A stretch of 38,924 nt of DNA from Halomonas sp. Lineage in GTDB: Bacteria > Pseudomonadota > Gammaproteobacteria > Pseudomonadales > Halomonadaceae. Position 1 is the first letter of the stretch. The number at the start of each line of letters is the position of its first letter. Made by a program: the position numbers and the translations under genes. Positions 9,889 through 21,122 of the stretch are shown here, piece after piece. A model generated the notes under the pieces. The model was not told where the DNA came from. It worked only from the letters and a program-made list of their open reading frames with translations, and did no database searches. The stretch spans positions 1 to 38,924 of the forward strand of contig NZ_JACUUD010000019.1 of the NCBI RefSeq assembly GCF_014859505.1, written 5' to 3'.

Positions 9889-12789
<2,901 letters not shown>

Positions 12790-12798
12790 GCGCCAAGC

Positions 12799-12825
12799 AA
12801 GAGGGAGGGCGTCAGCCTCCCTCTT
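12799..12825 (+). terminator. intercistronic stem-loop between nrdA and nrdB
   Basis: A perfect 10-bp stem (AAGAGGGAGG, seven-base loop, then its complement) lies nine bases after the nrdA stop. It is followed by CGTCAA rather than a T-run, so it is more likely a partial attenuator or an RNA-stabilising hairpin than a full terminator. nrdB has its own Shine-Dalgarno sequence. Confidence 0.5.
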
Positions 12826-12869
12826 CGTCAACACCGAATGTAGCCGGAACCTGACCGGGAGAGAGACAG

Positions 12870-14126
12870 ATGCTGAACTGGGACGAATTCCACGAGGACG
12901 AGACATCCGTCGCCGAGGCGACGGCCGCCAAGGCCACACCGGCCCCGACTGCCAAGCCGGAGGCTCCGCAGGAGGAGGTCCGGCCCGAGGCCGTGACCGA
13001 GAGCCGCGGCAGCTACCGGGTGGCCGAGGGTGACCGCCTGGCCCGGGCCCGCAAGTCCCTGGAGGAGCTTGACGTGGCCGCCGGCCTCGAGGAGCTGGAG
13101 ATGGGCGCGGCGCGCATACAGGTCGACGACAAGCAGATGATCAATGCCCGCGCCGACCTGAACCAGTTGGTGCCCTTCAAGTACGAGTGGGCCTGGCAGA
13201 AGTACCTGGACGGCAGCGCCAACCACTGGATGCCCCAGGAAGTGAACATGAACGCCGACATCGCCCTGTGGAAGAGCCAGGACGGCCTGACCGCGGACGA
13301 ACGGCGCATCGTCGAGCGCAGTCTGGGGTACTTCTCCACCGCCGATTCGCTGGTGGCCAACAACCTGGTGCTGGCGCTCTATCGGCTGATCACCAACCCC
13401 GAGTGCCGCCAGTACCTGCTGCGCCAGGCCTTCGAGGAGGCGATCCACACCCACGCCTATCAGTACTGTGTCGAATCGCTGGGCATGGATGAAGGCGAAG
13501 TCTTCAACATGTACCGCGAGGTGCCCTCGGTGGCCGCCAAGTCCGCCTGGAGCCTCAAGCACACCCAGTCCCTGGCGCGCCCGGACTTCAACACCGGCAC
13601 GCCCGAGACCGACCAGGAGCTGCTGCGCAACCTGGTGGCCTTCTACTGCGTGACTGAAGGGATCTTCTTCTACTGCGGCTTCAGCCAGATTCTCTCCATG
13701 GGTCGGCGCAATAAGATGACCGGCGTCGCCGAGCAGTTCCAGTACATCCTGCGCGACGAATCCATGCACCTGAACTTCGGCGTGGACATGATCAACCAGA
13801 TCAAGATCGAGAACCCGCACCTGTGGACCCCCGAGTTCCAGGACGAGGTCACCCAGATGATCCTCGAGGGCACCGAGCTCGAGATCGCCTACGCCCGGGA
13901 CACCATGCCCCGTGGCGTGCTGGGCATGAACGCGGCGATCATGGAGGAGTACCTCCATTTCATCTGCAACCGCCGTCTGGCCCAGATCGGCCTGAAGGAG
14001 CAGTACCCCGGCGCCCAGAACCCCTTCCCCTGGATGAGCGAGATCATCGACCTGCGCAAGGAGAAGAACTTCTTCGAGACCCGCGTCACCGAGTACCAAG
14101 TGGGCGGCGCGCTGAGCTGGGATTGA
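12870..14126 (+). CDS. nrdB: ribonucleoside-diphosphate reductase class Ia, beta subunit
   Basis: A 418-residue radical-generating small subunit. Iron ligands can be placed: D130 (NMNADIALW), E190 and H193 ([10 protein letters not shown]), E263 (VTEGIFF), E297 and H300 (RDESMH). The radical tyrosine is Y197, with the E-x2-H-x3-Y spacing of E. coli E115/H118/Y122, so this is a tyrosyl-radical enzyme. The first 60-odd residues are Ala/Pro/Glu-rich and low-complexity, which makes the protein longer than E. coli NrdB (376). The C-terminal tail (…GGALSWD) would dock into NrdA. Start: ATG with GGGAGAGAG upstream. Likely co-transcribed with nrdA. Confidence 0.97.
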
Positions 14127-14533: not shown

Positions 14534-15199
14534 TCAGTCGGGGAGCAGGTGGCCCACCTTCACGTAGATCAGTGCGCCCTCCTCGCCCGTGAAGGGCGTG
14601 TGCTGGCTGCGATGGGGGCTGCGCAGCCAGCTGCCGGCGGGATAGGCCCCGTGCTCGTCGTGGAAGACACCCTCCAGCACCAGGATCTCCTCGCCGCCCC
14701 AGTGGGCGTGGGGCTGGAAACGAGTATTGGGCGCCCAGCGCACCAGCGCCACGTGCTCACCCTCGACGTCATGCAGGGGCAGCACCTCGAGCCCTTCCAC
14801 CAGCCCCGGGCGCCACTCGGCCGAGCGGGTATCGATCACCTTCTGCTCGGTGTCCTCGGGCGAGAACTGGTGCAGCTTGACGAAGAGGGTGGCGCCCTGC
14901 TCGCCCACCCGGGGAGCATGGGCAGTGCCGATGGGGTTGCGCAGGTAGCTGCCCGCCGGGTAGCGGCCGTGCTCGTCGGCGAACTCCCCCTCCAGCACGA
15001 GGATCTCCTCGCCGCCGCCATGCTCATGGGACGGAAAGGTGCTGTCGGGTGCATAGCGCACCAGAGAGGTGGCGCGGGCCACCTCCTCGCCGATGCGGTC
15101 GAGCATCATCCGCTCGACCCCCGCCATGGGCGAGTCGACCCAGCGGTAGTCCTCGGGGGTGACCACCACCCGCTGGTCGAAGTCGGCATTGAGTCGCAT
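14534..15199 (-). CDS. double cupin protein, ChrR-type
   Basis: A 221-residue protein built of two similar ChrR-like cupin repeats. Repeat 1 has HEHGGGEEILVLEGEF at 58-73 and repeat 2 has HAHWGGEEILVLEGVF at 164-179; each is followed by an xDEHGxYPAGSxLR motif and a later His (H94, H200). The two His, the Glu and the distant His form a metal site in each repeat. In ChrR itself the cupin is the C-terminal part of an anti-sigma factor that answers singlet oxygen; here the zinc-binding anti-sigma domain is absent and no ECF sigma gene is next to it. The biochemical role is unknown. Start: ATG with AGGAGA upstream. It lies 27 bases downstream of the helicase gene and may share its transcript. Confidence 0.82.
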   Translation of the reverse strand: MRLNADFDQRVVVTPEDYRWVDSPMAGVERMMLDRIGEEVARATSLVRYAPDSTFPSHEHGGGEEILVLEGEFADEHGRYPAGSYLRNPIGTAHAPRVGEQGATLFVKLHQFSPEDTEQKVIDTRSAEWRPGLVEGLEVLPLHDVEGEHVALVRWAPNTRFQPHAHWGGEEILVLEGVFHDEHGAYPAGSWLRSPHRSQHTPFTGEEGALIYVKVGHLLPD

Positions 15200-15226: not shown

Positions 15227-17605
15227 TCAGGGCCGTTTCGTGTGGGTCGGACCGCCGGAGCCGCCTGGCGTTCCCGGTAGCTGCCACCACTCCGGCAGCC
15301 GGGCGCGCACCTCGCGCCGGGCGAAGCGGTCGTCCATCAGCACCACGGTGCCGCGATCCCCGGGGCCGCGGATCACCCGGCCGGCGGCCTGCACCACCTT
15401 GATCAGCCCCGGCACCCGGTAGGCGTAGTCGTCGCCGCGGCCGAAGCGCGCCTGGAGCCGCGCCTTCAAGGCCTCGTTGAAGTCGTCGAAGGGCGGCAGC
15501 CCCAGGGTGGCGACGAAGGCGCCGATCAGCCGCTCCCCCGGCAGGTCGACCCCCTCGGCGAAGGCGCCCCCCAGCACGGCGAAGCCGATGCCCTGCCCCT
15601 CCGGCGTGAAGCGCGCCAGGAAGGCGTCGCGCTCGGGCTCCCCCATCCCTCGCACCTGGGTCCAGGTGGGAATCGTCGGGTGCGCCTCGGCGAAGGCCGC
15701 CCGCGCCCGCTCCAGGTAGGCGAAGCTGCTGAAGAAGGCCAGATAGTTGCCGGAGCGGCGGCGGTACTGGCCGGCCAGTTCGGCGACGATGGGCGACAGC
15801 GAGGCCTCGCGATCCCGCAGCCGGGTGGAGATATCGGCGCGGATGCGCACCTCGAGCTGCCCCGCGGCGAAGGGCGAGGCCACCGACTGCCAGACCGTTT
15901 CCACCGGCAGCCCCAGCAGGTCGCGATGGTAGCCGGGCGGGGCCAGGGTCGCCGAGAAAAGCACCGCGGCGTGTGCCGCCTGAAAGCGCGGGGCAAGGAA
16001 GTCCGCCGGCACCAGGTTGCGCAGGCCCAGCACCGCCCGGCCGCGGCCGTGACGGGCCAGGTCGCACAGCGAGTGGTCGCCGAAGGACTCCGCCAGGCGG
16101 ATGAAGGCCAGCGCCTCGAAGAGCAGCTCCTGGAGCTCGGGGCTGGCCCCCTCGGGGTGCTCGCCCAGGTAGTCGGTGATGGCGCTGGCCGCCCCCTGCA
16201 GGGCGCCCACCATGGCCGACGGCAGGGCATCGAGCACCCGGTAGGCCGGCCGCCCCGTCTCGCCGACCTCGGCGAGCCCCGCCTCCTTCACCAGGCCCTG
16301 CCACTGGCGGGCCAGCCGCGCCAGCGGCCGGGAGAGCGCCGGCGGCACGCTGCGGCGCAGCCGGGCGAGACGGCGCTGGTCGAGCTCGGCGCTGTACATG
16401 CCCCGGGCCCGCTCCACCAGGTTGTGGGCCTCGTCCACCAGCAGGCCCACCCGCCAGCGGTTGGCCACCGCCAGGCCGTGGAGCAGCGCACTGGCGTCGA
16501 ACCAGTGGTTGACGTCCCCCACCACCACATCGCACCAGCGCGCCAGCTCCTGGCCCAGGTAGTAGGGGCAGACGCCGTGCTCGCGGGCCACCCCACGCAG
16601 CGCCTCGCGGTCCAGCCAGCCGCGCGCCACGGCCGCCTGGCGCGCCGCCGGCAGGCGGTCGTAGAAGCCCGCCGCCAGCGGGCAGGCCTCGCCGTGGCAG
16701 GCCCGGCCGGGGTACTCGCAGGCCTTCTCCCGGGCGGTGAGCTCCAGCACCCGCAGCGGCAGTCTCTCGGGAGTTTCCGCCGAGGGGCCACCGCCCTGCT
16801 CGCCCACCGTACCGGGCGCAGGCCTGGCCCCCAGCTGGCGCAGCGCATCCAGCGCCAGAGCCCGCCCCGGGGTCTTCATGGTCAGGAACATCAACCGGTC
16901 GAGGCCGTGGCGGGGCATCGCCGCCAGCTGGGGAAAGAGGGTGCCGAGCGTCTTGCCAATGCCGGTGGGGGCCTGGGCCAGCAGGCAGCGGCCGGTGGCC
17001 GCGGCCTTGTAGACCCCCTCGGCCAGCGCCCGCTGCCCGGGGCGGAAGTCGGCGTGAGGGAAGGCGAGCCTCTCCAAGGCAGCATCCCGCCGCGCGCGAT
17101 GCTCCGCCTCTTGCTCGGCCCAGGCACGATAGCGTCGGCACAGCGAGGCGAGGAAGGTGGCCAGCTCGGCGGCCTCGAAGCGCTGCTCGAGGCGGGTCTC
17201 GCGGCCGCTACCCACCTCCAGGTAGACCAGCGCCAGGGTGATCTCGGCCAGGCCCCGCTCAGCGCAGAGCAGCGCCCCGTAGGCCCTGACCTGGGCCCAG
17301 TGCAGGGCGCGCTGGTTGTCGGCCATGCGCGAAAGATCGCCGCGGTGGGTCTTCACCTCCTCCAGGCAGTGGGCGGCCGGGTCATAGCCATCGGCGCGCC
17401 CGCGCACCTCGAGCCCCTCGACCACGCCTGCGAGCGCCACCTCGCGCTCGTAGCCCTCGCCGCGACGGCGAGCGATCTCGGCGTGGCCGGCGATGCCCTC
17501 CTCGGCGCTGGGCGCGGGGGTGAAGCGGTGGTCCAGGTCCCCTTCCCGGGCGGTGAAGTCGCACAGGGTGCGCACCGCCACCCGCAGGCGTCGCATCTCG
17601 CTCAT
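15227..17605 (-). CDS. PD-(D/E)XK nuclease-linked DinG/XPD-family DNA helicase
   Basis: A 792-residue protein with two parts. The N-terminal ~170 residues form a RecB/Cas4-like nuclease: GRADG (D72), EEVK (E83, K85) and the RecB-family Q-x3-Y motif (Q105, Y109). The rest is an iron-sulfur superfamily 2 helicase of the Rad3/XPD/DinG type: Walker A QAPTGIGKT at 211-219, four candidate cluster cysteines C296, C303, C308 and C346, DEAH at 391-394, and a C-terminal motif VI (QAAGRVIRG). Such helicases unwind 5'-3' on branched or damaged DNA. The start overlaps the FAN1 stop by four bases (ATGA), implying translational coupling and joint work, probably in crosslink or recombination repair. An alternative start is the ATG three codons in. 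Confidence 0.88.
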   Translation of the reverse strand: MSEMRRLRVAVRTLCDFTAREGDLDHRFTPAPSAEEGIAGHAEIARRRGEGYEREVALAGVVEGLEVRGRADGYDPAAHCLEEVKTHRGDLSRMADNQRALHWAQVRAYGALLCAERGLAEITLALVYLEVGSGRETRLEQRFEAAELATFLASLCRRYRAWAEQEAEHRARRDAALERLAFPHADFRPGQRALAEGVYKAAATGRCLLAQAPTGIGKTLGTLFPQLAAMPRHGLDRLMFLTMKTPGRALALDALRQLGARPAPGTVGEQGGGPSAETPERLPLRVLELTAREKACEYPGRACHGEACPLAAGFYDRLPAARQAAVARGWLDREALRGVAREHGVCPYYLGQELARWCDVVVGDVNHWFDASALLHGLAVANRWRVGLLVDEAHNLVERARGMYSAELDQRRLARLRRSVPPALSRPLARLARQWQGLVKEAGLAEVGETGRPAYRVLDALPSAMVGALQGAASAITDYLGEHPEGASPELQELLFEALAFIRLAESFGDHSLCDLARHGRGRAVLGLRNLVPADFLAPRFQAAHAAVLFSATLAPPGYHRDLLGLPVETVWQSVASPFAAGQLEVRIRADISTRLRDREASLSPIVAELAGQYRRRSGNYLAFFSSFAYLERARAAFAEAHPTIPTWTQVRGMGEPERDAFLARFTPEGQGIGFAVLGGAFAEGVDLPGERLIGAFVATLGLPPFDDFNEALKARLQARFGRGDDYAYRVPGLIKVVQAAGRVIRGPGDRGTVVLMDDRFARREVRARLPEWWQLPGTPGGSGGPTHTKRP

Positions 17606-19338
17606 GCGGGCTGCACCCAGCGCACATGGCAGACCGCGACGGGGATGCCCTGCTCGCGGAAGAAGGCGAGCCAGCGGCGCTGGTTGTCCTGCAGGCGGTC
17701 ACCGGGGCCCTTGACCTCGATCAGCCGATACGGCGACTCCCCCTCGGCCGCCTCGGGGAAGAACTGGATCAGGTCCGGCAGGCCGGCGCGGTTGGCCTTG
17801 AGATCCCCCAGCAGGCGCGCGAAGCAGGCGCGCAGGTGCTCGGGCGGCAGGCAGTCGAGCGAAAGCGAAAGCAGCGCCTCGTCGAGCGCCCCCCAGTGCA
17901 CGAAGGGGTTGGCGAGCCCCTGCTTCTCCCGCCAGGTGGCGAGGATCGCCTGGCGGTAGCGGCCGTCGTCGAGGCGCGCCAGGCAGGCATCGAAGCGCTC
18001 GCGGCGGCGCGCCACGAACTCCTCCCGGTAGAGGTCCGCCGGGCCGCTGTGGAAGGGGTGAAAGAAGGCACCGGGCAGGGGCGCGAAGAGCGCCTCCCAG
18101 CAGAGCAGGCCGAAGAGCCCGGTGAGCAGGGTGTTCTCCACGTAGGCCACCGGGGCGTCGTCGCGCTGCAGGTGCTCGCCCACTGCGCGCTCGACGCTGG
18201 GTGAGAGCGGTAGGCAGAGCTCGAGGCGCTCAGGGGCAGGCGCCGCCTCCCGGGGCAGCGGCGCCAGCCCCAGCCGGCGCCGCAGGCGGGGAAGCAGCCG
18301 CGTGAGGGCCTGGGCCTCCGCCTCCCCCGGCGACTCGCCGGCCAGGGCCTCGGCCAGCGCATGGGCCTCGGCATGCTCCCCCCGGCGCTCCCGCAGGCGC
18401 AGGTGGCGAATGCGCGCCTCCGCGCTGCCGGAACCCGCCGGCCAGCCCGCCTGGCGGTAGAGCCCAAGCGCCCGCTCGCCCTCCCCGTCTCGCTCGGCCT
18501 GGCGGCCCAGGGCCAGTTCGAGGCGCCGGCGCCGCGCCGAAAGCCAGGGGTTGTCCGACGGTATCGGAGGCAGGGCATCGGCCAGCGTCGCCACCGGCTC
18601 CCCGGCATCGAGCCGGTCGCGCAGCCGGTGCAGCGCCAGGTAGGCGTCCACCTCCTCGCGGCGCTGGAAGGCCCGGGACTCGGCGCTGAAGGGCACCCGC
18701 TCGAAGCGCTGCACCCCGAGCTCCGCGAGCACGAAGTCGGACCAGTCCTGGCGCAGGTTGCCGAAGAACATCAGCCGCAGCCGGTCGCAGGTGGCCATCA
18801 CCGTCAGGCGCACCACCCGATCCGGGGCCGCCGGCCACCATGCGGCCAGCGGACGCGCCTCGAGGCCCCGAGGCGCCAGGGCCTCGAGCAGGGCGGCCTT
18901 GCCCAGCGAGGCCGAAAGCCCGGCGGCGCGGATCTCCCCGGCCAGGGCCAGGCGCAGCTCGGGCAAGCGAAGCTGGGCGAAGAGGGTCTCAAGGGAGAGG
19001 GCGGGATCGCCCTCGACCAGGCCGGCGGCCAACAGCGGCGCCAGGGCCGCCTCGCCGTCGCCGGTCTCGGCACTGTCCTCGCTGTCGGCACTGTTCTCGG
19101 CGTCGATCTCCGGATAGACGAGCTTCGAGGTGCGAAAGTGCTCGCCCCGGCGCATCACCATGCGCACCAGCAGCGCCCGGGAGGCCCGCGGCAGCGCGGC
19201 AAAGTCGGCCAGGAACGCCCGCTCCTCGTCGCCGAGCAGGTCGCCGTGGCGTTCGGCGACCCAGTCCAGCACGAACTGGAAGTTCACCAGGTAGTAGAAA
19301 GGATCCGCGAGGGAGGCGGCGGGAGAGCTACTGGTCAT
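17602..19338 (-). CDS. FAN1-type structure-specific nuclease (VRR-NUC domain)
   Basis: A 578-residue homologue of the Fanconi-associated nuclease FAN1, also known from Pseudomonas. The N-terminal part (from about 10) begins FYYLVNFQFVLDWV and carries a SAP-like DNA-binding region near 125-160; a helical TPR-like middle follows. The C-terminal VRR-NUC domain has the catalytic set P521-D522 (GLPDLIQFF), E541-V-K543 (IEVKGPGD) and Q553. FAN1 cuts 5' flaps and helps unhook interstrand crosslinks. An acidic Ser/Asp/Glu-rich loop at about 103-114 is low-complexity. The start is the first ATG before the family N terminus; its ribosome site is weak. It is the first gene of the pair with the helicase. 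Confidence 0.9.
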   Translation of the reverse strand: MTSSSPAASLADPFYYLVNFQFVLDWVAERHGDLLGDEERAFLADFAALPRASRALLVRMVMRRGEHFRTSKLVYPEIDAENSADSEDSAETGDGEAALAPLLAAGLVEGDPALSLETLFAQLRLPELRLALAGEIRAAGLSASLGKAALLEALAPRGLEARPLAAWWPAAPDRVVRLTVMATCDRLRLMFFGNLRQDWSDFVLAELGVQRFERVPFSAESRAFQRREEVDAYLALHRLRDRLDAGEPVATLADALPPIPSDNPWLSARRRRLELALGRQAERDGEGERALGLYRQAGWPAGSGSAEARIRHLRLRERRGEHAEAHALAEALAGESPGEAEAQALTRLLPRLRRRLGLAPLPREAAPAPERLELCLPLSPSVERAVGEHLQRDDAPVAYVENTLLTGLFGLLCWEALFAPLPGAFFHPFHSGPADLYREEFVARRRERFDACLARLDDGRYRQAILATWREKQGLANPFVHWGALDEALLSLSLDCLPPEHLRACFARLLGDLKANRAGLPDLIQFFPEAAEGESPYRLIEVKGPGDRLQDNQRRWLAFFREQGIPVAVCHVRWVQPA

Positions 19339-19485
19339 CTATCCATGATATCAGCGGACCAGGACAAAGGCAGTCCTTCACCATGCGAATGGGGCAAGTC
19401 GGGGTAAGGAATCGACACGCCTGCCGACCCAATCCCGGCACCTTCTTGTTCAATGTTCCCGGATACCGAGCTATCAGGAGTACCC

Positions 19486-21122
19486 ATGGCAAGTCCTGCT
19501 AACTGGCCCATACCGCTGCGCTATGGTGCCTACATCGCAAGCCTGCTGGGGCTGGGGGCAAGCCTGCCCGCCTGGGCGATGGGCGCACCCTTGTGGCCCG
19601 TCCTGCTGTTTGCCGCGCTGGTGGCTCTGGGAACCTGGGATCTCAGGCAGCGCTCCCGGACCCTGCGCCGCAACTATCCCATCCTCGCGCACCTTCGCTA
19701 CTGCATGGAGGGGATCGGCCCCGAGATTCGTCAGTATTTCGTGCAGTCGGATACCGAGGAGCGGCCCTTTTCCCGCGAACAGCGCAGTGCCGTCTACCAG
19801 CGTGCCAAGAACATCCTCGACAAGAAGCCCTTCGGATCCGTGATGGACATGTATGCAGAGGGCTACGAATGGATCAATCCTTCGTTGGCGCCGTCAGAAC
19901 CGGGTCATGATGCCATCACGGTACTGGTCGGCAGCGAGCGCCGCCAGCCCTATCGGGTCAGCCTGCTCAACATCTCGGCCATGAGCTTCGGTGCCCTCTC
20001 CGGCAATGCCATCGAGGCCCTCAACCGCGGGGCTCGACGCGGCGGCTTCTATCACGATACCGGCGAGGGCGGTATTTCGGGTCACCACCTGCAGGGCGGC
20101 GACCTGGTGTGGGAGATCGGCTCAGGCTACTTCGGCTGTCGCGACCTCGGGGGCAATTTCGACCCGAACACGTTCGCCGAGAATGCCGCCCGCCCCGAGG
20201 TCAAGATGATCGAGATCAAGCTCTCCCAGGGCGCCAAACCCGGCCACGGCGGCATCTTGCCCGCAGCCAAGGTGACCGCTGAGATCGCCGCCGCGCGAGG
20301 CGTTCCCATCGGCCAGGACGTGATATCGCCGGCAAGCCACATGGCCTTCTCCACGCCGCTGGAGATGATGCACTTCATCGAGCACCTGCGGGAACTCGCC
20401 GACGACAAGCCGGTGGGCATCAAGCTGGCCATCGGCCATCCCTGGGAGTGGTTCGGCATTGTCAAGGCGATGCTGGAGAGCGGCATCCACCCGACTTCAT
20501 CGTGGTGGACGGTGGTGAAGGGGGCACCGGCGCCTCCCCGCTGGAGTTGATCAATCGTCTGGGGATGCCGATGGTGGAGGCCCTGTCCCTGGTGCACAGC
20601 ACCCTGGTGGGTGCCAACCTGCGCCATCGCATTCGCCTCGGCGCCGCCGGCAAGATCATCTCGGCCTTTCATATCGCCCGCACCCTGGCGCTGGGCGCAG
20701 ACTGGTGCAACTCGGGGCGCGGTTTCATGTTCTCGCTGGGCTGCATCCAGGCCATGAACTGCCACTCCGACCGCTGCCCCAGCGGCGTGGCGACCCAGGA
20801 CCCTCGCCGCAGCCGACACCTGGACGTGGCCGACAAGAGCGAGCGGGTCTACCACTATCATCGCAACACCCTGGAGGCGCTGGTCGAGATGCTGTCCGCC
20901 GCGGGGCTGGAGCGCCCTGCCGACCTTCGCCCCGAGCACATCATGCGCCGCGTATCGCGCCACGAGACCCGTTCCTATGCCGAGCTGTACCCTGTGCTGG
21001 CCCAGGGCGAGCTGCTGCACCACCTTCCCGAACAGCCGCTGTTCCAGCGCTTCTGGCAGGAAAGCCGCAGCGATAGCTTCCAGGCGCCCGCGCAGATCAT
21101 CGACCTGCGCTATCGGTCCTGA
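19486..21122 (+). pseudogene. FMN-binding glutamate synthase family protein, frameshifted
   Basis: The gene encodes a GltS-type flavoprotein (COG0069): an N-terminal membrane segment, then an FMN barrel (SLLNISAMSFGALS, GAKPGHGGILPAAKV) and a 3Fe-4S cysteine motif (GCIQAMNCHSDRCPSG). The reading breaks at about 20491-20493. The first frame reads …ESGIHP and then runs to a stop at 20550; the second resumes DFIVVDGGEGGTGASP and continues to 21122. Restoring one base at CACCCG (as CACCCCG) gives a continuous protein of about 545 residues, so a single C seems to be missing. This is either a real mutation or a sequencing error in a C-run. The start at 19486 has AGGAG upstream. If intact, the enzyme would act at the membrane on an unknown electron donor or substrate. 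Confidence 0.88.

Follow-up and report, generated by a model that had tools for sequence, protein, structure and literature searches.

The 38,924-nucleotide contig NZ_JACUUD010000019.1 of Halomonas sp., analysed over its full length and termed the window, carries a gene for a homologue of the nuclease FAN1 followed directly by one for a helicase that has a nuclease domain of its own. The two genes probably form a repair unit that is induced in the SOS response and acts in one pathway. That both proteins act in a single damage-response pathway is the part of this reading held with the greatest confidence, supported by the genomic context. Interstrand crosslinks have about an even chance of being the main substrate, and a stable physical complex of the two proteins is rather doubtful. 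The coupling of the genes is close and conserved and the pair looks damage-inducible, so that it is rightly viewed as a repair module.

Organization of the gene pair

Both genes lie on the minus strand, FAN1 (17602–19338) first and the nuclease–helicase (15227–17605) second. The ATG start codon of the helicase overlaps the TGA stop codon of FAN1 in the tetranucleotide ATGA at 17602–17605. The original prediction, made from the letters of the window, had described these frames, strands and four-base overlap, together with D522, E541, K543 and Q553 of FAN1 and D72, E83, K85, Q105 and Y109 of the helicase; on re-reading of the open reading frames every one of them stood as claimed. The features are as follows.

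17602..19338, minus strand: FAN1 homologue of 578 amino acids, gene 1 of the pair (547 bits to 4r89; FAN1_HTH, FANC_SAP and VRR_NUC)
19087..19299, minus strand: FAN1_HTH domain, FAN1 residues 14–84 (Pfam PF21315, E 4.9e-32)
18838..19002, minus strand: SAP domain, FAN1 residues 113–167 (Pfam PF18081, E 2e-11)
17617..17967, minus strand: VRR-NUC nuclease domain, FAN1 residues 458–574, with D522, E541, K543 and Q553 (Pfam PF08774, E 7.1e-36)
17602..17605, minus strand: ATGA shared by the stop codon of FAN1 and the start codon of the helicase (NTGA in 29/29 loci examined)
15227..17605, minus strand: fusion of a predicted RecB/Cas4-type nuclease and an XPD-type iron–sulfur helicase, 792 amino acids, gene 2 of the pair (AlphaFold2 model, best PDB match 9kqh)
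17072..17605, minus strand: predicted RecB/Cas4/EXO5/MGME1-like nuclease domain, helicase residues 1–178, with H41, E55, D72, E83, K85, Q105 and Y109 (profile, model and conservation)
16949..16963, minus strand: Walker A motif GIGKT, helicase residues 215–219 (K218 in 128/128 rows)
16568..16720, minus strand: iron–sulfur cluster segment, helicase C296, C303, C308 and C346 (residue check and conservation)
15281..15757, minus strand: Helicase_C_2 domain, helicase residues 617–775, with Q739, R743 and R746 (Pfam PF13307, E 2.8e-34)
19331..19346, minus strand: candidate LexA operator ATGGATAGATGACCAG over the FAN1 start codon (10/16 to CTGTATATATATACAG; family matrix)

Conservation of the pair across genomes

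FAN1 was called by FAN1_HTH and the helicase at E <= 1e-20 in a sample of 398 genomes of the phylum; the genome handles agree between the FAN1 and helicase listings, which are thus treated as one sample. FAN1_HTH is present in 55 of these genomes and the helicase in 43. Both genes occur in 36, and in 35 of the 36 FAN1 lies directly upstream, in the same order on the same strand, with a start-to-start distance of 1604–1969 bases. In the 36th genome (G249) they are on separate contigs. The Fisher odds ratio for co-occurrence is 91 (p 3e-30), calculated for genomes that are not independent. The 35 adjacent pairs span eight families (f1, f2, f3, f4, f7, f11, f20 and f23), all in the class of the window, and no helicase match was found outside that class in the sample. 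Burkholderia stagnalis is a named genome with the pair, and in three further Burkholderia records the matches to FAN1 and helicase are adjacent by coordinates. The original prediction had proposed a search for wider conservation of the overlap, and would have been undone by an adjacency confined to close relatives; the eight families speak for it, with all pairs inside the one class.

The junction reads NTGA in 29 of the 29 loci examined. It is ATGA or GTGA in 22 and TTGA in six; in the remaining one (L037) the helicase frame is broken, yet starts at the same junction position. In a second set of loci, from largely the same genomes, the register of the four-base overlap is kept in 32 of 34, the exceptions being the broken-helicase genome (L037) and the relative from Pseudomonas aeruginosa, where the listed frames share 14 bases. 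Judged from these sequences the coupling of FAN1 and helicase is not due to chance, and the overlap of start and stop codons suggests coupled translation. A frame of 1335 amino acids in B. stagnalis (L086) was considered as a fusion of the two proteins and rejected; the helicase frame there runs open past FAN1, which is in another frame.

Trees were made by a quick method from hand-picked subsets (alignments A2 and A3, of 54 and 50). The FAN1 tree has 44 rows, omits L075 and ten later-fetched FAN1 loci, and includes L190 and L192 in shortened form; the helicase tree has 49 rows, including 7 of the 86 helicases from other phyla, and many of its forks are open. In the FAN1 tree the paired rows group together with two label changes, the split pair of G249 being nested among them and G304 unresolved beside them. 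In the helicase tree unpaired genes are scattered among paired ones, as would be expected if FAN1 had been lost or had become separated. Neither tree places G046/G354 or G308 within the group formed by the remaining f1 members, and the helicase tree leaves their exact branching open; joint transfer of both genes in these genomes is only a suggestion.

The FAN1 protein

Human FAN1 is a crosslink-repair nuclease and a modifier of Huntington disease, and a bacterial orthologue serves as structural model for it; Iyer et al. 2006 is said to be the source on VRR-NUC. In the window FAN1_HTH, FANC_SAP and VRR_NUC occur together in one chain, all above the Pfam cut-off, and the protein aligns end to end with P. 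aeruginosa FAN1 (4r89, 547 bits). Its D522, E541 and K543 align to D507, E522 and K524, given as the catalytic residues of the P. aeruginosa enzyme in the text available from PMC9635880. All 35 paired FAN1 rows have D522, K543 and Q553, and 34 have E541. By its domains and catalytic set the protein belongs to the FAN1 (KIAA1018) family, with a predicted nuclease activity. The same excerpt describes FAN1 as cleaving 5′ flaps in general (PMC9635880).

The nuclease–helicase

The second protein matches DEAD_2, DEAD and Helicase_C_2 in Pfam. With its Walker A motif, DEAH box, DEAD_2 and Helicase_C_2 domains and four cluster cysteines it has the features of the XPD family. The cysteines C296, C303, C308 and C346 are kept in every one of the 34 paired and the 8 unpaired helicases from gammaproteobacteria, and in 85 of the 86 from other phyla. 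An AlphaFold2 model of the whole chain (predicted local distance difference test, pLDDT, 92.5) has as its best PDB match 9kqh, Finegoldia magna DinG with single-stranded DNA (Z 34.6, root-mean-square deviation 4.2 over 724 residues, Foldseek template-modelling score 0.80); structures of XPD match residues ~178–780 with Z of 20–25. The sequence scores follow the same order, at 327 bits for F. magna DinG, 63 for archaeal XPD, 33 for FANCJ and 32.5 for Escherichia coli DinG. The protein had been labelled XPD/FANCJ-type; the XPD-type motor stands, and the nearest relative is F. magna DinG rather than FANCJ. On these scores it was rejected as an orthologue of FANCJ. The NCBIfam DinG equivalogs fall below their cut-offs (PRK11747 76.7 versus 598; PRK08074 66 versus 789). 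The C-terminal part of the helicase has a second match elsewhere in the genome of the window (31% identity, E 5e-9). According to the part of PMC6300356 that was available, XPD-family helicases translocate 5′–3′, a polarity that the window helicase would share by family.

The N-terminal nuclease half has no Pfam match at E 0.1. A profile made from 30 helicase relatives matches Cas4 SSO0001 (4ic1) over the nuclease domain with E 6.6e-4, and a model of residues 1–180 (pLDDT 93) matches 9kqh (Z 18.7), Cas4 SSO0001 (13.1), MGME1 (12.7), EXO5 (10.5), AddAB (9.4) and Dna2 (7.9). D72, E83, K85, Q105 and Y109, as well as K218 of the motor, are present in 128 of 128 rows, while H41 and E55 each have one gap and E55 is once replaced by D. 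These counts, and the helicase tree, omit L206 (G050), in which the helicase frame is broken. We take the H-E-D-ExK-Q/Y set to be a RecB/Cas4-type nuclease motif. By modelled fold and residue set the N terminus is thus a nuclease of that type, with predicted activity, in keeping with the RecB-type domain that the original prediction had seen there. Cysteines 15, 80, 114 and 156 are not nearly invariant, so that no cluster of the kind found in Cas4, EXO5 and Dna2 is apparent in this domain.

Candidate LexA sites

Positions −120 to +30 relative to the FAN1 start were scanned with CTGTATATATATACAG, taken here as the LexA consensus, at a threshold of at least 12 of 16 positions. Sites at this level were found in 16 of the 35 paired operons, the window being one of the 35, compared with a mean of 0.065 on order-1 Markov resampling. 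There are none at the helicase starts of 34 paired loci, and six among 4445 control windows of paired loci. The box-bearing operons comprise 11 of family f3, two of f20, and one each of f11, f1 and Burkholderia. In the split pair of G249 each gene has its own box, of 14/16 before FAN1 (L070) and 13/16 before the helicase (L069). In several families, sites resembling the LexA box stand where FAN1 starts, and make the operon a candidate for SOS control.

The best site at the FAN1 start of the window scores 10/16 against CTGTATATATATACAG (p 0.075), which is not significant alone. The lexA promoters of the same family contain CTGGATAGAACAACAT, CTGTATACTTGATCAC and similar boxes, of which 18, chosen with a short pattern, were used to make a family matrix. 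With this matrix the score of ATGGATAGATGACCAG, lying over the start codon of FAN1, is reached by 0.17% of control windows. Each of the family's nine operons has a site whose score no more than 0.17% of control windows attain, located at the start codon in eight; the ninth (L181) has a consensus-like box at −42. With boxes that were chosen through a short pattern, and a site that shares its bases with coding sequence, the family matrix gives support rather than proof. By eye, a TATCAT-like element lies just before the ATG of FAN1 (19331–19350, minus strand) and is similar across much of the family, suggesting that the transcript may be leaderless.

In P. aeruginosa the FAN1 gene PA1865 and its neighbour in number PA1866 are listed among 18 genes induced by UV-C in the portion of PMC12796719 at hand, which describes PA1865 as a gene for the unhooking of interstrand crosslinks that is also induced by ciprofloxacin. 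In a genome with a FAN1 93% identical to 4r89 (G733) the helicase is next after FAN1, with a secretin gene further on; from this order PA1866 is inferred to be the helicase. Induction may proceed by another route in G733, where a LexA box is lacking.

The genes apart and with other partners

The 19 FAN1-only genomes comprise ten with a long form of the protein and nine with a short one. By Pfam, two of the long forms (L073 and L074) have a C-terminal DEDDh exonuclease, and a profile from four (L073, L074, L078 and L079) matches the other six, including the interrupted L075; it has no match in the nine short FAN1-only proteins or in the FAN1 of G249. As read from these profiles, FAN1 is fused to a DEDDh exonuclease in ten of the 19. 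Two of ten FAN1 genes without an adjacent helicase have a LexA-like site of 12/16 or better (L070 of G249, and L074), as do three of ten others (L243, L245 and L246), and the detached N-terminal fragment of the L075 FAN1 retains one. Within the FAN1-only genomes boxes are confined to the long forms. By eye, the FAN1–exonuclease gene of L075 (G015) is broken by two frames resembling transposase, and the stretches of L073 (G035) and L078 (G274) also contain frames like DNA polymerase X, with one like a Y-family polymerase in L078 as well; these two stretches are possibly repair islands.

A wider helicase scan of genome contigs, with a query headed by a Clostridia sequence, returned at least 443 relatives. 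The best 80 are mostly from Bacillota, with three from Verrucomicrobia, two from Aminicenantes and one from a bin named Heimdallarchaeota. The flanks fetched for these 80 loci (up to 6 kilobases (kb), some shorter) contain no FAN1. A search of 33 of the 80 genomes in full for VRR_NUC gave five matches, two of them over the cut-off, in frames of 99–150 amino acids that are too short for FAN1. Thirteen of the 80 have a TIGR03915-like gene no more than 3.5 kb upstream, in one case a fragment; three of these genes were confirmed by NCBIfam and one by a DUF4130 domain. The motif GAACN4GTTC is upstream of the helicase in five of 79 loci (shuffle mean 0.18), L140 being left out of the 80 as its upstream sequence is too short.

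Other nuclease genes adjoin this helicase family elsewhere. In three Legionella plasmids (L088, L241 and L242) the helicase overlaps an annotated GIY-YIG nuclease gene by eight bases, and the same stretches have umuD and a Y-family polymerase, with dinB in two. Pfam confirms GIY-YIG in both partner proteins tested, one of which has RNase_T below the cut-off (22.3 versus 24 bits). No site of at least 11/16 was found at the three Legionella promoters. These plasmid repair islands also carry Ku, UdgX, dinB or an SOS-response-associated peptidase in some cases. On an Aminicenantes chromosome (L136) the gene beside the helicase, with an ATGA overlap, has both RNase_T and GIY-YIG, each just over its cut-off. 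A helicase match was found in 26 of 199 genomes of that phylum. The four closest (G421, the genome of L136, G849, G901 and G909; 44–46% identity) have an adjoining RNase_T/GIY-YIG gene; none was seen beside the other 22 (30–36% identity in pieces), for which the flanks fetched were short and the match in some cases incomplete. A Verrucomicrobiota bin, L123, has a gene for a GIY-YIG protein of 300 amino acids that ends inside the helicase start; of 194 Verrucomicrobiota genomes 13 have the helicase, and L123 alone showed the GIY-YIG neighbour.

That the helicase works in the service of a structure-specific cut is hinted at most strongly by the alternation of FAN1 and GIY-YIG partners, with DEDDh occurring beside either; few lineages outside the gammaproteobacteria contribute to this hint. 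More tentatively, a general SOS repair system of bacteria could be built around the nuclease–helicase, which would combine with one or another structure-specific nuclease. By opening damaged duplex for this partner to cut, it would provide a way of dealing with crosslinks and bulky blocks independently of UvrABC, as eukaryotic XPD does together with flap nucleases. With the same reserve, the partners would be FAN1 in gammaproteobacteria, a DEDDh–GIY-YIG protein (UvrC-like) in the Legionella plasmids and the Aminicenantes type, and a shorter GIY-YIG protein in the Verrucomicrobiota bin. The exchange of FAN1 for GIY-YIG beside one helicase family yields a prediction of the property that counts in a partner.

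Mechanism and alternative explanations

In the proposed mechanism DNA damage would lead to inactivation of LexA, and FAN1 and the helicase would be made together. The helicase would move 5′–3′ on single-stranded DNA and open the duplex up to a block, either an interstrand crosslink or a stalled fork, generating a junction with a 5′ flap. Close to the block this flap could then be cut by FAN1, with trimming perhaps done by the Cas4-like nuclease domain of the helicase.

A number of observations weigh against an SOS-induced unit of one pathway. Eleven of the 16 boxes are in family f3, and are not 16 independent events; 19 of the 35 paired operons have no 12/16 box, those of the window and of the P. 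aeruginosa relative included. A box is absent from all nine short FAN1-only genes, and present in just three of eight gammaproteobacterial helicases without adjacent FAN1 (L068, L069 and L067, the last with its box ~75 bases before the conserved helicase start). The start-codon site of the window's family may be kept partly for reasons of coding or initiation. In the genome of the window the pattern CTGKATAN6CAG has seven sites compared with four for the reversed control pattern, so most matches are due to chance; one of them, CTGTATATGCCAACAG, has at a distance of 39 bases a gene whose product contains an S24-peptidase domain and is of UmuD-like size. The part of PMC12796719 consulted places PA1865 and PA1866 among genes under no known LexA-like repressor, and has PA1865 repressed by hydrogen peroxide. 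The link to crosslinks comes from work on P. aeruginosa FAN1 as cited in portions of other papers. The helicase is without FAN1 in 7 of 43 helicase genomes and FAN1 without the helicase in 19 of 55. FAN1_HTH was found in none of 199 Bacillota-centred and 96 Verrucomicrobiota-centred genomes, in a search whose controls give no signal for this family, the same model having matched 55 of the 398 phylum genomes. No fused form, which the original prediction had suggested looking for, was seen among the fetched loci. That prediction had the two proteins forming one repair machine, in which the helicase opened the DNA up for FAN1. The conserved pair and candidate SOS sites favour a unit acting in one pathway; the one-sided genomes argue against a strict machine of two parts.

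The same one-sided genomes would suit two independent SOS enzymes that share an operon and promoter and act on different lesions, with no common substrate and no hand-over from helicase to FAN1. So would the unlinked genes of G249 with a box each, the helicases of Bacillota and Verrucomicrobiota, where FAN1_HTH was not found, and GAACN4GTTC upstream of five of the 79 loci of the genome-contig scan. Adjacency in 35 of 36 genomes and a four-base overlap in the loci examined are, however, tighter than shared regulation needs, and in other lineages the helicase family adjoins another type of structure-specific nuclease, leaving independence unlikely. General processing of replication forks or R-loops, as thought for E. 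coli DinG, with crosslinks a minor substrate, overlaps with the SOS repair unit in all but the lesion. The nearest solved relative is named DinG, the excerpt of PMC6300356 links bacterial helicases of the XPD family with blocked forks and D-loops, and that of PMC9635880 has FAN1 cutting 5′ flaps in general. The NCBIfam DinG models, though, score far under their cut-offs, and the other family member in the same genome may already serve that role; we regard this explanation as distinctly unlikely.

It is very improbable that the helicase belongs to an anti-phage locus or a type IV CRISPR (DinG/Csf4-like) defence locus with FAN1 as a chance neighbour. The PADLOC model typeIV_DinG (PDLC01439, 'CAS-IV-A; associated') does match helicase residues 176–777 with 354.8 bits, and relatives of the helicase occur in 16 phage records, all unannotated, in which phage and host DNA were not told apart. 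This explanation is disfavoured by the lack of a short-spaced repeat array in the window, by the ten neighbouring window proteins, none of which matches PADLOC at 0.001, by a score of 17.5 for NCBIfam csf4 against a cut-off of 400, and by the SOS-like sites. The iron–sulfur cysteines are kept, moreover, while CRISPR-associated DinG is described without a cluster in the available part of PMC6300356. As a type IV CRISPR DinG (Csf4) the protein was rejected, on the csf4 score and the missing array, despite the PADLOC match. With regard to phage origin, FAN1 has no relative in IMG/VR (one query with narrow patterns, covering close relatives), and the helicase has at least six loci there, one strong (L209, 32% identity over the whole length) and five weak.

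Relation to known systems

Bacterial FAN1, XPD-type helicases and RecB-type nucleases are known already, and a structure has been solved for the helicase architecture. The closest known FAN1 is that of P. aeruginosa (PaFAN1, PA1865; 4r89 and 5y7q), matched over its full length with 547 bits and the same HTH, SAP and VRR-NUC domains and catalytic residues. It differs in being treated as a single enzyme; the operon partner, overlap and candidate LexA sites do not figure in the portions of its literature at hand. F. magna DinG (9kqh) has the same architecture of N-terminal nuclease and XPD-type helicase from end to end, at 30–32% identity. Finegoldia magna belongs to the Bacillota, and differs in its setting from the window pair, with no FAN1_HTH in the 199 Bacillota-centred genomes and no FAN1 in the fetched flanks of the best 80 helicase loci. 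XPD, FANCJ, E. coli DinG and YoaA share the iron–sulfur superfamily 2 motor, XPD structures matching residues ~178–780. None of the four is known to have an N-terminal nuclease of the RecB/Cas4 type, and the sequence scores for XPD, FANCJ and E. coli DinG are low (63, 33 and 32.5 bits). The nuclease domains of Cas4, EXO5, MGME1, Dna2 and AddAB have the RecB-like fold and the conserved H-E-D-ExK-Q/Y set; that of the window protein differs in being joined to an XPD motor and in having no apparent cluster of its own.

In the open-licence literature, judged by titles and the starts of abstracts, no description of a FAN1–helicase operon, of its control by LexA or of partner exchange was recognised, and no paper on F. 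magna DinG 9kqh was found. If the two genes do form a repair unit, they would offer a simple two-gene system in bacteria for identifying the helicase that feeds FAN1, as well as a candidate route of crosslink repair in bacteria.

Neighbouring genes

Genes for the large and small subunits of ribonucleotide reductase (9889–14126, plus strand) lie near the pair on the opposite strand, and are followed by a gene for a ChrR-type double cupin protein (14534–15199, minus strand). On the other side a glutamate-synthase-like gene (19453–21122, plus strand) runs in two overlapping frames that match positions 67–220 and then 229–368 of the Glu_synthase profile, which suggests a frameshift or sequencing error near 20450–20550.

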